Source: Bacillota bacterium (lineage in GTDB: Bacteria; Bacillota; Clostridia; Christensenellales; CAG-138). Taken from it: a stretch of 64,000 bases of DNA. The first letter of the stretch is position 1, and each line of letters begins with the position of its first letter. Shown here piece after piece: positions 5,794 through 63,672 of this stretch. Location of the stretch: contig JAEEKE010000131.1 of the NCBI GenBank assembly GCA_016282255.1, positions 1 through 64,000 on the forward strand, written 5' to 3'. Position numbers and translations under genes: made by a program. The notes under the pieces were generated by a model, which saw nothing but the letters and a program-made list of their open reading frames with translations, ran no database searches and was not told where the DNA came from.

Positions 5794-6561
5794 TCAGTCG
5801 GGGTTTTCCTCGCTGTAATCGCTGTCGACGGATGAGGCATCGTTCCTTTCGGCATTCTCGTCGAATGCTTCGAAACGGTAGCCGACGCCGTATACGGTCC
5901 TCAGTTCCCAGCCGTGCTTTTCATGCTGAGCGATTTTTTGGCGGATGCGCTTGATCTGAGTATCGACCGCACGCAGCTCGCGCGTATCGCCGTAAAAATC
6001 ATAGCCCCACACGAGCGAAAGGATCTTTTCGCGCGAAAAGACCTTGCCGGGATGCGAGGCGAGCAGCTGGAATATTTCGACCTCTTTGGGCGTCAGAGGC
6101 AGTCTTTCGCCGTCGATGCGGATATCGTAGTTATTGATATTGATCTCAAGATTGCCGTAGCGGAGAAGCTGGGCGGGCTCGGTCTCCTGAGTGTTGAAAC
6201 GGCGGAGCACGGCCTTGATGCGCGCAACGACCTCGCGTGCGCTGAAGGGCTTAACGATGTAGTCGTCGGCGCCGAGCTCCAGACCGAGCACGCGGTCGAT
6301 CTCCTCGGATTTTGCGGTAAGCATAATGATGGGAACGTTGCTCGTCTGGCGGATGGTCCTGCAGACGTCCATACCGCTCTTTTTGGGCATCATCAGATCG
6401 AGGATCATCAGATTGGGCTTTTTGCGGTTGAATTCATCGATCGCCTGTTCGCCGTCGTATGCCGAGATGTAGTCGAAGCCCTCGTTCTTAAGATAGACGC
6501 CGAGCGTTTCGTGGATTATATGCTGATCGTCGCAGATCAGGATAAGCGGTTTGGTAGACAT
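5794..6561 (-). CDS. OmpR/PhoB-family response regulator
   Basis: Receiver domain ILDLMMPKKSG / IIMLTAK / GADDYIVKPF plus winged-helix C-terminus. Confidence 0.95.
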   Translation of the reverse strand: MSTKPLILICDDQHIIHETLGVYLKNEGFDYISAYDGEQAIDEFNRKKPNLMILDLMMPKKSGMDVCRTIRQTSNVPIIMLTAKSEEIDRVLGLELGADDYIVKPFSAREVVARIKAVLRRFNTQETEPAQLLRYGNLEININNYDIRIDGERLPLTPKEVEIFQLLASHPGKVFSREKILSLVWGYDFYGDTRELRAVDTQIKRIRQKIAQHEKHGWELRTVYGVGYRFEAFDENAERNDASSVDSDYSEENPD

Positions 6562-6796
6562 AATATGCTCCTTTCATCATGTTGGTTTGATTATAGTGCT
6601 TTTATAAAGAACTTTCAATAGTTTTCGCAACTTGTCACGGTCTGTCCCCGTTTTTGCCATAAAGGCAGGATGCGCCTCTGCCATATTTGAGCCATTATTT
6701 GTCAAAGAATGTAACCTTGTTTTGGGGTTTAACTGACACATTCATTTGATATAATTTAAGCATAATAACAAACAGACGGAAAGGAAGCCTGCAAAT

Positions 6797-57708: not shown

Positions 57709-59040
57709 TCAGTTTGCGGGAACGTCGTTGACGGTGGAAGCGAACAGCACCGATCCGGAGGAGTGCATAATCAGCATTGCATACGGCCTGTCGCACACCA
57801 TGGTGTATTCGCCAAGGCCGACGGGTGCTGCGTTCTTCGTGCCGGTAACGCCGGTTGCGGCCGCAGCTTCGGTGCCGAATTCGGTGACTTTCAGCACCGC
57901 CGCGTGCACGAACTGCGTCAGGAATACGGTCCCGTTCTCAATGATGCCGGGGAACAAAGTGGTGCCGTTGGCAATACCCTCAAGCCCGAGCTTTGCAAGC
58001 AGCGGCATCGCGTCGAACTTGGAGGAAACGCTGACCTGCGGCATCATGATCGACACCATGGCCGACTGCGCGGTATCGAGCTTATCGATAACTTCGCCCA
58101 TCGCCTCTGCGGGGGAGGTGCTCTTCTCGGGCAGTATGAGCGCCATATAGTAGTCGCCGCCCTTATACGGGATCAGAACGAATTGATTGCCGTTTACGTT
58201 TCCGTAGCGGTAATCCGAATAGCTTGAAAGCATGGTCACAGCGCTGTCGCCGTTTACACCGTGAAAGATCGAAGTATCCTTGAAGGCGGTGAAAGGTTTC
58301 TGCCATTCCGAATTGAAATACAGAGCGTTGACAAGCGCCATCACCGTATCACCGGCTATATCGTCGAACAGCTCCGGGATCAGTCCTTCGGTATTCTCGC
58401 TGACCCACCCGTTTATAAGGCGCAGGGCTTCTTCGGTGTTTCTGAAATCGACCTCGCCGATCGAAGCGTTATAGTAATCGGCGGCATCGTGTTCAAAGGA
58501 TTCGAGGAAGCGGTCGCCCGCGCCGACCAGTATGGTGCTAAGCAGCTTTACCTTGGAGATCGGTTCGGTCGCTTTGCCGCTTTGATCCGTGGCCTTTGAG
58601 GTCAGATTCTGAACGGATTTGTTGAGCGCGTTGATGAGCTTAGCGGCGTTTTCATTGGTCTCTTCAAGCCCGAGCTCGGTCATGAGCGCCGAAAGGATGG
58701 TACTCGAAGTCTCTTCATCCGCGCCGTTTGCGAGCAGCTCGAGCATCAGTGCAAAGGACAGCGGCGAAACGACACCGGTCCAGTCTTCGCCCATATTCTT
58801 TACGAGTTCGACGGAGAAAGCGTTCAGCGAGTAAATATAGGCCTTCTCCACGTCGCCCTTATTGATCATGCCGGTACCCTGTGCAAGATGGATAGTGCCG
58901 GCATTACCGCTCTGGCCGTTGTCCGGCGCGGGCGTTGTGTTCGTATCGCCGGCGGGTTTAACGCAGGCTGTGACAGCGCACGAAAGCATTACGATCGCAA
59001 GGATCATGGATATGGTTTTGATCAGCTTTTTGCTTTTCAT
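57709..59040 (-). CDS. Serpin family lipoprotein (serine protease inhibitor)
   Basis: Lipobox AVTAC; ALYFNSEWQKPF; reactive-centre hinge TEFGTEAAAATGVTGTKN; DRPYAMLIMHSSGSVLFASTVNDP-like C-terminus. Confidence 0.95.
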   Translation of the reverse strand: MKSKKLIKTISMILAIVMLSCAVTACVKPAGDTNTTPAPDNGQSGNAGTIHLAQGTGMINKGDVEKAYIYSLNAFSVELVKNMGEDWTGVVSPLSFALMLELLANGADEETSSTILSALMTELGLEETNENAAKLINALNKSVQNLTSKATDQSGKATEPISKVKLLSTILVGAGDRFLESFEHDAADYYNASIGEVDFRNTEEALRLINGWVSENTEGLIPELFDDIAGDTVMALVNALYFNSEWQKPFTAFKDTSIFHGVNGDSAVTMLSSYSDYRYGNVNGNQFVLIPYKGGDYYMALILPEKSTSPAEAMGEVIDKLDTAQSAMVSIMMPQVSVSSKFDAMPLLAKLGLEGIANGTTLFPGIIENGTVFLTQFVHAAVLKVTEFGTEAAAATGVTGTKNAAPVGLGEYTMVCDRPYAMLIMHSSGSVLFASTVNDVPAN

Positions 59041-59128
59041 ATGAATACTCCTAACTGCTTCTTTATTCTTCTTATCGCCGAAAACTGAAATCGTTTTCAT
59101 TTATACAACGATTTAAACGCTCAAACGG

Positions 59129-59157
59129 TTCACTTTTTACCGTAAATCGATTATAAT
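59129..59157 (+). promoter_or_regulatory. uvrC promoter
   Basis: TTCACT-N17-TATAAT, 6 nt before the uvrC ATG. Confidence 0.65.
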
Positions 59158-59163
59158 ATAAAT

Positions 59164-61047
59164 ATGGACCGAAGGATAGAGGAAAAATTGAAGCTACTGC
59201 CGGACAAGCCGGGCGTTTACAAGATGTACAACGAACGGCACGAGCTGATCTACGTCGGAAAAGCCGTCAGCCTTAAAAACAGGGTCAGGCAGTATTTTCA
59301 GTCATCGCGGAATCACACCGAGAAGGTCCGCGCGATGGTCGCCAATATCGCCGACTTCGATTTTGTCATAGTCGGCAACGAAACGGAAGCGCTTAATCTT
59401 GAGTGCAACCTTATTAAGCAGAATCAGCCGTATTACAACATACTGCTCAAGGACGACAAGCATTTTCCCTATATCCGCATAGATATGCGGCAGGATTTCC
59501 CGAGGGTAGAGATCGTCAGGCGCTTTCGGAAGGACGGGGCAAAGTATTTCGGGCCCTATCTCAGCGCATCCGCCCTGCGAGAGACTATCACCGCGGTCCG
59601 CGATAATTTCCCGGTCCGTCAATGCAAGAACGATATCTCGAAGATGATCCTGAAGCATGAAAGGCCCTGCCTTTTGTACCACATCGGCAAATGCTGCGGG
59701 CCCTGCACGGGCAGCGTTTCAAAAGAGGAGTATCACGAACTCATCAATGAGATCTCTGCGCTGTTCCAGGGAAACGGCAAGCCCTATATCGGGAAGCTGA
59801 CGGAGCAGATGCTCGAAGAATCCTCAAAGATGAACTTCGAGAAGGCGGCCAAGCTGCGCGATATGATAAGGGCGATAGAAAGCGTATGCGCAAGGCAGAA
59901 CGCTTCGTTTGCAAGCGACAGGAGCTACGACGTCTTTGCGCTTGCAAGGGACGAGCTGCAAACGCTGGTTTACGGCCTATTCGTGCGCGGAGGCAGCGTC
60001 ATCAAAGCCGAAAGCTTCAAGCTCGATGCCATGGACGAGCCGTTCTCCGAGGTCATCTCGCAGTTCCTGATGCAGTTCTATATCGATTCGGGCAGCATTC
60101 CCGGCGAGATCTGCATAATGAACGAGGCAGATGAGCGCGCTGAGATAGAGAAGCTGCTTTCCGAACAGAGCGGCCATGCCGTTCATATCCATGTGCCCCT
60201 GCGCGGAGACAAGCTCTCACAGGGCAAGCTTGCACAGCTTAACGCCGAGCAGACGCTTGCGCGCAACCGCGAGCTCGCTCACCGCGAGTGGGAGCGCACC
60301 GAGGGCGCTCTTGCGGAGCTCACGAATGCGATCGGGATGGACTTCCTGCCTCACCGGATGGAATGCTTCGACAATTCGCACACACAGGGACGCGACGCGG
60401 TCGGCTCGATGGTTGTCTTTATCGACGGTAAGCCCGAGAAATCGCTTTACAGGCGCTTCCGAACCAAGCAGGACGTCAACGGGGACGACTATCTCGCCAT
60501 GCGCGAGCACCTTCAGCGCAGGTTCGAGCGGACGCTTTCGGGCGACGAAAAGTTTGCCGAGCTGCCGGACCTTTTGGTCGTTGACGGCGGAAGAGGGCAG
60601 CTGAACGTTGCGCTCGAAGTGCTTGAAGGACTTGGCCTTGGGCATATAAACGCTATAGGTCTTGCCGAAAGGAATGAGGAGATAATCCTTCCCGGCAGGG
60701 AGGATCCCCTCGTTCTTGAGAGAAGCAATCCCGCGCTGCAGCTGCTGCAGCGGATAAGGGACGAAGCGCACCGATTCGCGATCACCTATCACAGGAGCCT
60801 AAGGGCAAAGAGCTCCCTTTATTCACGGCTCTCCGAGATCAGCGGAATAGGCGACGCCAGAAAGCGGGCGCTTTATGAACATTTTCTTACCATCGACGCG
60901 ATATCGAACGCGTCCGTTGAACAGCTCAGAGATGTCCCCGGAATGAATATTACGGCAGCAAGAAGCGTGCACGCATATTTTCATCCGGAGATCGATACCA
61001 CACCGACCGATTCGGATAACCCTCATTCAGCTGCGGAGGAACGATGA
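59164..61047 (+). CDS. uvrC: Excinuclease ABC subunit C
   Basis: EEKLKLLPDKPGVYKMYNERHELIYVGKAVSLKNRVRQYF..., full GIY-YIG/UvrC/HhH domains. Confidence 0.98.
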   Translation: MDRRIEEKLKLLPDKPGVYKMYNERHELIYVGKAVSLKNRVRQYFQSSRNHTEKVRAMVANIADFDFVIVGNETEALNLECNLIKQNQPYYNILLKDDKHFPYIRIDMRQDFPRVEIVRRFRKDGAKYFGPYLSASALRETITAVRDNFPVRQCKNDISKMILKHERPCLLYHIGKCCGPCTGSVSKEEYHELINEISALFQGNGKPYIGKLTEQMLEESSKMNFEKAAKLRDMIRAIESVCARQNASFASDRSYDVFALARDELQTLVYGLFVRGGSVIKAESFKLDAMDEPFSEVISQFLMQFYIDSGSIPGEICIMNEADERAEIEKLLSEQSGHAVHIHVPLRGDKLSQGKLAQLNAEQTLARNRELAHREWERTEGALAELTNAIGMDFLPHRMECFDNSHTQGRDAVGSMVVFIDGKPEKSLYRRFRTKQDVNGDDYLAMREHLQRRFERTLSGDEKFAELPDLLVVDGGRGQLNVALEVLEGLGLGHINAIGLAERNEEIILPGREDPLVLERSNPALQLLQRIRDEAHRFAITYHRSLRAKSSLYSRLSEISGIGDARKRALYEHFLTIDAISNASVEQLRDVPGMNITAARSVHAYFHPEIDTTPTDSDNPHSAAEER

Positions 61048-62861
61048 ACATCAAACTGCTCGTTTTGGATATAGACGATACCCTTGTGTTTAAGGCGGGA
61101 CCCGTATCCGATGAAAACTTAGCCGCCATCACCGCCGCAAGAAAAGCCGGCGTCTACGTAACGCTTGCAACCGGCCGCGGCTACTACGGCTCGTCAAGGG
61201 TCGTTAAGCAGCTCGGACTCGACACATATGTTATAAACTACGGCGGCGCGATGATCACCGATTCGAGAACCGGCAGACCGATCTTCACCACCGAGCTCGA
61301 CAATGCCTATGTTCAGGAGATCATGGCTTTGGCGGGGGATATGGGCCTTCACGTGCATCTGTATCAGGGCGACTGCATCATCTATGAGCGTCCGCACGAG
61401 TATGCGGATCTGTACTGCGCGGCTCTGAACCTGCCCCACATGCTCGACCCGGATCTGCGCAGCAAAACGTGGAAGAACGTTCCCAAGGTACTTATCATAA
61501 CCGAGCCCGAACGCGTTCCCGAGCTGCTGCCGTTCTTCAAAAAGCATTTTGAGGGCAGGGTAGCGGTATCCGGTTCGTCCCCCGGCTTTATAGAATTCAA
61601 CAGGATCGGTGCAAATAAGGGCACCGCCGTTGAACACCTGGCAGGGCTCCTCGGCATCGATCGGGAAGAAGTCTGCGCGGTGGGCGACAACACGCTCGAT
61701 TATGAAATGATCGAATACGCCGGCCTCGGCGTCGTAGTGGAGAACGGGAACGAGCAGCTCAAGAAGATCGCAAACCTGATCGTCCCTTCATGCACCGAGA
61801 ATGGCGTTGCGTATCTTATAAATAACTACATACTCGGCTCCGCTCCCTTGTCGGGCAGCGCCGAAAAAGCAATTGAAAACGGAAAGAGGAAAGAGAGAAT
61901 GTACAGAATTGGATTCGATATCGGAGGCACGAATATCGTTGCCGGTCTTCTTGATGGAGAATACAGGATAATCCGCAAGCTGAGCCGCCCCTTCAGGCGC
62001 AATGCGACCGGAGAGGAGGCGGGGGATGCGCGTTTTATAGCTGAGGATCTTTATAACTTAGCAAAGGACGTATGCGAGGCGGAGGGCGTGCCGTTCGATT
62101 CCGTACCGAATATCGGCATCTGCATCCCCGGCAGCGTGGATACCGCTAAGGGCATCGTTATAGACGCTCATAATCTTGGGCTTCACGATTCACCGTTCCG
62201 CAGCGTTTCGGAGGAGGTTTTCGGCAAGCCCTGCGCGCTGCTCAACGACGCGGATGCGGCTGCGCTCGCGGAGTTCAGGCTCGGCGCGCTCAGGGAACAT
62301 CCCAATTCCATGCTCGTGACCATCGGCACCGGTATCGGCGTCGGAATAATCATCGGCGGAAAGCTGTTTCACGGCGGACGCGGCTACGGCGTCGAAGCCG
62401 GGCACGCGCAGATGGATCTTCACGGTTCATATTGCACCTGCGGAAGGCGCGGCTGTATCGAGACGCTCTGCGCCGCGACCTGGCTCAATCACCGTGCGGC
62501 GGAGCTGTATGAAGCCGCGGAAGGGCCGATAAAGGCGCTCTATGAAACCTATTCCTCGCACGGCAAATTCGACGCGCGCGGCCTTATCGAGTGTTCCAAG
62601 ACCGGCGAAAAGAACTGCGTTGCCGTTTGGAACGAGTATCTCGAGTCGCTTTCGAACGCGCTCGCATCCTACGTCAACATCCTCGATCCCCAGCTGATCG
62701 CCATCGGCGGCGGCGTCAGCGGTGCGGGCGATTACCTCATAAAGCCGCTTATCGAGCTTACCGCGAAGCAATCCTTCTTCCGCGAACCCACGCCGATAAT
62801 CCGTGCAGCGCTCGGCAACGACGCGGGGCTTGTGGGCGCCGCCATGTATACAGATCAATAA
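61044..62861 (+). CDS. Fusion protein: Cof-type HAD-IIB hydrolase + ROK-family sugar kinase
   Basis: MNIKLLVLDIDDTLV...ATGRGYYG...CAVGDNTLDYEMIEYAG, then in-frame MYRIGFDIGGTNIVAGLLDG...CTCGRRGCIETL. Confidence 0.92.
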   Translation: MNIKLLVLDIDDTLVFKAGPVSDENLAAITAARKAGVYVTLATGRGYYGSSRVVKQLGLDTYVINYGGAMITDSRTGRPIFTTELDNAYVQEIMALAGDMGLHVHLYQGDCIIYERPHEYADLYCAALNLPHMLDPDLRSKTWKNVPKVLIITEPERVPELLPFFKKHFEGRVAVSGSSPGFIEFNRIGANKGTAVEHLAGLLGIDREEVCAVGDNTLDYEMIEYAGLGVVVENGNEQLKKIANLIVPSCTENGVAYLINNYILGSAPLSGSAEKAIENGKRKERMYRIGFDIGGTNIVAGLLDGEYRIIRKLSRPFRRNATGEEAGDARFIAEDLYNLAKDVCEAEGVPFDSVPNIGICIPGSVDTAKGIVIDAHNLGLHDSPFRSVSEEVFGKPCALLNDADAAALAEFRLGALREHPNSMLVTIGTGIGVGIIIGGKLFHGGRGYGVEAGHAQMDLHGSYCTCGRRGCIETLCAATWLNHRAAELYEAAEGPIKALYETYSSHGKFDARGLIECSKTGEKNCVAVWNEYLESLSNALASYVNILDPQLIAIGGGVSGAGDYLIKPLIELTAKQSFFREPTPIIRAALGNDAGLVGAAMYTDQ

Positions 62862-62882
62862 ACCATCGGAGGAAACAAAGCC

Positions 62883-63602
62883 ATGTCAATAATGTGCGCC
62901 GTATTCGTGCCCGACGGCATCGTCCTTGCAGCGGACAGCCGTCAGACCATCGGCATTTCCAAAATGCCGAATCCATCCCAGCAGACCCACGGTCAGCCCC
63001 GCGTTTTGAACCGCATGGACAGGCCGAATCAGCCCCCGGTGCAGATGATCTCCCAATCGGACAACGCGCAGAAGATCATGCTTCTGAGCAAGGTAAAAGT
63101 CGGCATTTCCGCCTGCGGCATAGGTATTCTAAACGGCAAGACCGTTTCCGATTTCATCCGCTCCTTCGAGATCGACGTGATCGAAAAGACCGACTCCGTC
63201 ACGGACGTTGCCCATAAGCTGCAGAAATACGCCGCGTCGTTCTTCCCTCAGGTCAATTTCTTCGTCTGCGGGTATGAAGAGGAGGAGCCCTTCGTTTACA
63301 GCGTGAACAAGGAGATAAACCGCAGCAATATGGATAACGGCAAGCTCCGTTACGCTTCCATCTGGTCCGGCGAACAGGCTACGATCTCCAAGCTTCTCAA
63401 CGGCAATCCGCCCATGATAGTCAACCACGCGCTGATGCCGCTCAAGGATGCGATCGATTTCGCGGATTTCCTCATTGATTCCACCATCAAATCCCAGCGC
63501 TTCGAGATGAAGGTCGCGACCTGCGGCGGGCCGATCGATCTGCTCGTTTTGACTAAGGACGAGGCCTTCTGGTACAGGCACAAGATCTTCAAGCCGGCCT
63601 GA
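62883..63602 (+). CDS. Proteasome-beta-like Ntn hydrolase
   Basis: MSIMCAVFVPDGIVLAADSRQT... resembles proteasome beta/HslV N-terminus; DNAQKIMLLSKVKVGISACGIG. Confidence 0.7.
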   Translation: MSIMCAVFVPDGIVLAADSRQTIGISKMPNPSQQTHGQPRVLNRMDRPNQPPVQMISQSDNAQKIMLLSKVKVGISACGIGILNGKTVSDFIRSFEIDVIEKTDSVTDVAHKLQKYAASFFPQVNFFVCGYEEEEPFVYSVNKEINRSNMDNGKLRYASIWSGEQATISKLLNGNPPMIVNHALMPLKDAIDFADFLIDSTIKSQRFEMKVATCGGPIDLLVLTKDEAFWYRHKIFKPA

Positions 63603-63633
63603 AATAAGCTATACCGTTTCATTCATAATAAGG

Positions 63634-63672
63634 ACCTTCATGCGTAGAATTTGGCATGAAGGTTTTGTTTTG
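63634..63672 (+). terminator. Rho-independent terminator
   Basis: ACCTTCATGC ... GCATGAAGGT followed by TTTTGTTTT. Confidence 0.8.

Follow-up and report, generated by a model that had tools for sequence, protein, structure and literature searches.

An open reading frame at positions 62883-63602 (+) of the window, i.e. the 64,000-nucleotide stretch of a gut/rumen Clostridia contig analysed here, very probably encodes a cytosolic Ntn hydrolase that is proteasome-like, stand-alone and of the group II homolog kind, with catalysis predicted to depend on Ser2, Asp18 and Lys64. This assignment is based on sequence conservation and structural models. The Glu residue found at position 18 in three homologs, the moderate TM-scores and a Pfam score of the 239-aa protein (P0001) below the gathering score weigh against it. 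The observation that had drawn attention to this gene, a proteasome beta-like N-terminus, was confirmed in the translated sequence, and its interpretation is supported by the conservation pattern and the modelled fold.

The ntn gene and its conserved residues

The gene, hereafter ntn, was delimited by its ORF and orthologs, with further support from Foldseek matches and dN/dS values. It starts with ATG, ends with TGA and is preceded by a GGAGG Shine-Dalgarno sequence (62868-62872, +) located 10 nt upstream; comparable purine-rich sites are found 5' of most orthologs. The start position is conserved across orthologs, and there is no propeptide. The translated ORF begins with Met1-Ser2, and loss of Met1 would place Ser2, Asp18 and Lys64 at positions 1, 17 and 63, respectively, so that the Asp residue falls at position 17 as originally predicted. 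Asp18 and Lys64 are 46 residues apart, compared to 16 in the proteasome (D17-K33). The roughly 30 extra residues that had been noted ahead of Lys64 are therefore real and correspond to the quoted insert at residues 26-55.

Among 100 related genomes sampled, 17 from the same GTDB family carried a full-length ortholog (41-84% identity), and one further genome from the same order carried a distant relative only. Species-representative genomes contained 28 loci, 27 of them in Clostridia MAGs (mostly ruminant where the record title gives the source) and one in Bacillus sp. 7884-1. The latter harbours a truncated copy of ~91 aa (L049:5001-5276), with intact genes in its close relatives L075-L077, as in a decaying gene. 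Comparison of the window gene with its congeners yielded dN/dS ratios of 0.09-0.16 at dS values at or above 1, and these low ratios indicate purifying selection.

In an alignment of 19 sequences, M1, S2, K64, G215, G216 and D219 were invariant. Conservation was also scored in a set of 56 sequences that comprised every full-length homolog collected, including host, prophage, Bacillaceae and long 430-aa forms. Position 2 (codon 62886-62888, +), the T1 equivalent, is occupied by Ser in 38 and Thr in 18 sequences and by nothing else. Position 18 (codon 62934-62936, +), the D17 equivalent, is Asp in 53 and Glu in three cases, and the K33 equivalent at position 64 (codon 63072-63074, +) is Lys throughout (56/56). 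Gly79 is present in 55 of the 56 proteins, as are G215 and G216 of the GG-P-I-D motif (residues 215-219; 63525-63539, +), the counterpart of the S-G-G sequence in beta subunits, whose D219 is retained in 52. Once Met1 is removed, S/T2, D/E18 and K64 correspond to the T1-D17-K33 triad. Such a pattern is expected if methionine aminopeptidase, whose action on Met1 we infer, uncovers an N-terminal nucleophile. The prediction of a Ser nucleophile thus stands for P0001 but not for the family, in which Ser or Thr is found at position 2, with at least five changes between these states on a tree of homologs up to 300 aa. S2 (or T2), D18 (or E18) and K64 are kept in the homologs, as the original prediction had anticipated.

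P0001 is very unlikely to be a catalytically dead or purely structural protein with a proteasome fold, in the manner of the alpha subunits. The positions of beta D166 and S169 are replaced, by V and C in P0001, and are not conserved in homologs, which makes catalytic competence uncertain and would fit such a role, as would the behaviour of the related BPH, which has an intact triad yet is inert on standard substrates (PMC5777263). However, strict conservation of S/T2, D/E18 and K64 over very divergent homologs fits selection for catalysis rather than structure, and alpha subunits have N-terminal extensions instead (PMC8665760).

Long proteasome-like proteins of ~430 aa, featuring S/T2, D18 and a Lys that is conserved, are encoded at L019:505-1800, L051:1429-2736 (-) and in L081-L083. 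PHROG 5990 (427 aa, unknown function) weakly matches P0001 in the C-terminal GG-ID region shared with these ~430-aa proteins. Another proteasome-like homolog (MSLIICTYVPTGIVLSGDSR...) from Bacillaceae (G501, L098:7800-8501, -) adjoins a DUF4062 protein.

Modelled fold, insert and proposed mechanism

AlphaFold2 models based on two alignments reached pLDDT values of 81.7 and 83.5. In both models, most of residues 27-46 scored below 50, as did residues 50-59 in the second. In Foldseek searches against the PDB, the two models gave top E-values of 9e-8 and 6e-8 (probability 1.00) and 409 and 381 matches at E<=1e-3, the best 50 listed being all proteasome entries, mostly beta subunits. The anticipated proteasome-type Ntn fold was thereby recovered. 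TM-scores were up to 0.71 when normalized by target and a moderate 0.48-0.59 by query length for the listed matches, and structural matches to the 20S proteasome showed ~12-18% identity. The models contain strands 2-9, 12-20 and 22-27, the insert, strands 54-59, 63-68 and 73-79, helices 88-99 and 106-116 and, further on, helices 166-172 and 187-205 and strands 219-223 and 228-232. As modelled, this order matches a beta subunit that has H1-H4 but lacks a C-terminal coiled coil, and the beta sandwich S1-S11 flanked by H1-H4 is present in the AlphaFold2 models as matched by Foldseek. A viral structure library gave as its best match a siphovirus protein whose existing name is 'Proteasome beta type-2 subunit' (E 3e-10).

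When the single sequence was searched against Pfam, NCBIfam and PDB sequences, all matches were sub-threshold and some were spurious (F-actin capping protein, Ureide permease); P0001 alone scored 16.1 bits against Pfam Proteasome, below the gathering score of 22.4. At the family level, 14 of 19 members matched this model at E<=1 (best 4.9e-5). The family profile detected proteasome beta chains among PDB sequences (4e-4, 4e-5) and, weakly, an alpha chain (alpha3, ~0.02). In the alignment at E 4e-5, D18-S-R is placed on VDSR/ASDSR of proteasome beta and K64 on the Lys of S.N..K in beta5 chains, a register that also supports the assignment of Ser2.

The genome draft (91% complete) contains a single PF00227 match above threshold, a canonical HslV on contig C19 (TTIVAV...GDG...K, T1/D17/K33) with the HslU gene immediately downstream; no alpha subunit was found in this draft. 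The absence of alpha subunit and HslU genes noted in the original prediction thus holds for the neighbourhood examined, but not genome-wide for HslU, which sits with HslV on another contig. We considered P0001 as the organism's HslV, a CodW-like protein with Ser1 acting together with HslU, given its proteasome-type fold, the lack of an alpha subunit and the presence of Ser1 in CodW (PMC5777263). This assignment is strongly disfavoured and was dropped in view of the separate canonical HslVU pair and of a profile-profile comparison (hhalign) with the lineage's HslV, which was not significant, the HslV set being shallow. Moreover, an HslV occurs in 54 of 61 relatives irrespective of the window gene, the PDB sequence matches listed for the family profile include no HslV chain, and the NCBIfam HslV model did not match P0001.

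The insert (residues 26-55; 62958-63047, +) lies between strands S3 and S4 in a region of low pLDDT. Its core, PRVLNRMN.P.QPP, is partly conserved within the genus. The other genera of the family have a much shorter insert or none, and prophage homologs a much shorter one, so that the insert is mainly a genus-level, lineage-specific loop extension rather than a defining feature. The same site carries a helical (two-helix) insertion in connectase and PMI-6, with a gating role in connectase (PMC8665760). By analogy, P0001 could be a specific peptide ligase or transpeptidase instead of a protease, with the insert gating a single substrate. The shared position of the insertion and the conservation of parts of it within the genus speak for this alternative, which we nevertheless judge unlikely, since both models show the insert as disordered, other genera have a short one or none, and the P0001 model includes H1-H2, which are missing in connectase.

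For the favoured hydrolase, the following mechanism is proposed. Methionine aminopeptidase would take off Met1, with no need for propeptide cleavage, and Ser2, activated by Lys64 (K33) and Asp18 (D17), would then act as the N-terminal nucleophile and attack the carbonyl of a peptide or amide. The oxyanion hole may be provided by the glycine around position 79, as judged from conserved positions. Assembly into an HslV- or BPH-like ring is possible because the model has H1-H4. Since the neighbourhood examined holds no gene for a dedicated ATPase, the substrates are probably small or unfolded peptides or one specific partner, and the insert may limit access in the window genus. We infer both the activity and the oligomeric state of P0001.

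Genomic contexts in hosts, prophages and a restriction locus

In the window, ntn is located 21 bp downstream of a single ORF encoding a HAD phosphatase fused to a ROK kinase (61044-62861, +; Pfam Hydrolase_3, ROK), which follows uvrC (59164-61047, +), the first gene of the putative transcription unit. A promoter-like site precedes uvrC (59129-59157, consensus match only), and ntn is followed by a strong terminator-like hairpin whose tail is U-rich (63631-63666, +; -18.5 kcal/mol, z -5.4). Spacing and terminator suggest that ntn ends a uvrC - HAD/ROK - ntn unit and would be expressed together with its other members. The usual order in related loci is serpin (-) / uvrC - HAD - ROK - ntn. Of 27 related loci, 21 have a ROK-kinase gene ending 3-89 bp 5' of ntn. 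Most related loci show hairpins with T-rich tails 3' of ntn. HAD and ROK, a single ORF in the window, are adjacent or overlapping separate genes in L022, L023, L026 and L027. One genome (G032, L127) lacks ntn but retains uvrC-HAD-ROK, which makes ntn an optional last member of the unit.

A serpin gene with a lipoprotein-like N-terminus (57709-59100, -) is conserved 5' of uvrC in 19 related loci. We weighed a role for this serpin as a protease-inhibitor partner; uvrC intervenes, however, the gene lies on the opposite strand and its adjacency may be plain synteny.

Homologs were also found outside this locus. By tblastn, IMG/VR contigs carry full-length homologs with identities of up to 44%, the closest showing 41-48% in the multiple alignment. 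In at least five distinct prophages, ntn follows a PHROG structural or tail gene and precedes holin and endolysin genes (L056, the near-identical L057/L058, L062, L067 and L088, the copy in L088 having an interrupted N-terminus). In L053, an endolysin gene lies ~3 kb downstream and the upstream genes have no PHROG match; the homologs in L054 and L055 are situated between tail genes and beside a terminase gene, respectively. L067 contains a second, divergent proteasome-like gene (6104-6685, -). INPHARED phages yielded no match in tblastn searches with P0001 or with a prophage homolog.

Close copies in non-phage surroundings lie on the chromosomes of three Bacillaceae genomes. P0003 (258 aa; L021:1501-2277, G048:C2), a more distant copy, is encoded between hsdM and hsdS in a type I restriction locus. 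Among plasmids, six partial, weak matches to P0001 and none to P0003 were obtained. Since PADLOC had no model matching P0001, P0002 or P0003, membership in a defence system is not claimed. A further homolog (L045:5001-5669) has as neighbours a DUF6273/TPR protein of 976 aa and a DUF3644-like protein with a weak match to PADLOC PDC-S19; it lies near recombinase-like genes, possibly in a mobile defence island.

The prophage homologs, with their 41-48% identity and their recurrent position between structural/tail and holin/endolysin genes, raise the question of whether the window gene was acquired recently from a phage, as a moron, and is not a housekeeping gene of the host. This origin appears improbable, as the gene of the window lineage sits in a locus that is non-phage and conserved across several genera and is under purifying selection, and the window clade is separate from the phage clade on the tree and not nested inside it. 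Recent phage origin is hence unsupported by context or tree; ancient host-phage exchange is possible. More tentatively, and with considerable doubt on our part, the homologs may form a Bacillota-wide clade of small enzymes with Ser/Thr nucleophiles that is shared by hosts and tailed phages and has been recruited to uvrC-HAD/ROK, prophage tail-to-lysis and hsdM-hsdS modules. If true, it would point to a portable function in processing or conflict that is independent of an ATPase and undescribed for proteasome homologs.

Comparison with known proteasome-like proteins

The class of proteasome-like proteins is defined by Thr1/Ser1, Asp17, Lys33 and Gly47, and its members other than proteasome beta and HslV are without propeptides (PMC8665760). 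The original prediction of a divergent Ntn hydrolase is upheld by the model fold and the conserved triad, but the label 'orphan' is not, as the protein belongs to this wider class. The nearest published home for the family, likened by published description rather than by sequence, is the group II firmicute clusters FC1-FC5 (Fuchs, Alva and Lupas 2021, PMC8665760), which like P0001 are stand-alone Bacillota proteins with no propeptide, a Thr1/Ser1-Asp17-Lys33 triad and no known AAA+ partner. Several group II proteins resemble both proteasome beta and alpha, as does the family profile (beta 4e-5; alpha3 weak, ~0.02). For FC1-FC5, no informative gene context is given and no phages are listed (PMC8665760), whereas a ROK-adjacent locus, prophage copies and a copy in a type I restriction-modification locus were found here.

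P0001 shares the fold and triad register of 20S proteasome beta, but has no propeptide, does not conserve D166/S169 and comes from a genome draft in which no alpha subunit was found. With HslV/CodW it has the proteasome beta fold in common, and with CodW in particular the N-terminal Ser nucleophile (PMC5777263); unlike for HslV, there is no HslU gene adjacent to it, and its genome contains a separate canonical HslVU pair. BPH likewise lacks a propeptide and an ATPase partner and has Ser1 in members outside Betaproteobacteria (PMC5777263), but it is described as an HslV descendant (group I), whereas the family profile of P0001 has proteasome beta and, weakly, alpha chains but no HslV chain among its listed matches. 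Connectase is also a stand-alone proteasome-like protein with an S3/S4 insertion; it is, however, archaeal, lacks H1/H2 and has a helical insertion (PMC8665760), as opposed to the helices at 88-99 and 106-116 and the disordered insert in the P0001 models. Anbu has a C-terminal helical extension (H5) for coiled-coil contacts, whereas the P0001 models end in strand 228-232 and a short tail.

The proteasome-like class including FC1-FC5 (Fuchs 2021) and its Ser1 variants are thus already described, with precedents for a Ser1 nucleophile in BPH outside Betaproteobacteria, CodW and Amb0901 (PMC5777263). New are the full-length relatives in prophages, at least five of them at the position between structural/tail and holin/endolysin genes, and the one hsdM-hsdS copy, so that the interest lies in these contexts rather than in the Ser nucleophile. 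For most proteasome-like homologs besides the proteasome and HslV, no function is known. The ROK partner gene, the recurrent prophage position, the restriction-locus copy and the natural Ser/Thr swap offer handles on their substrates and on how they work without an ATPase.
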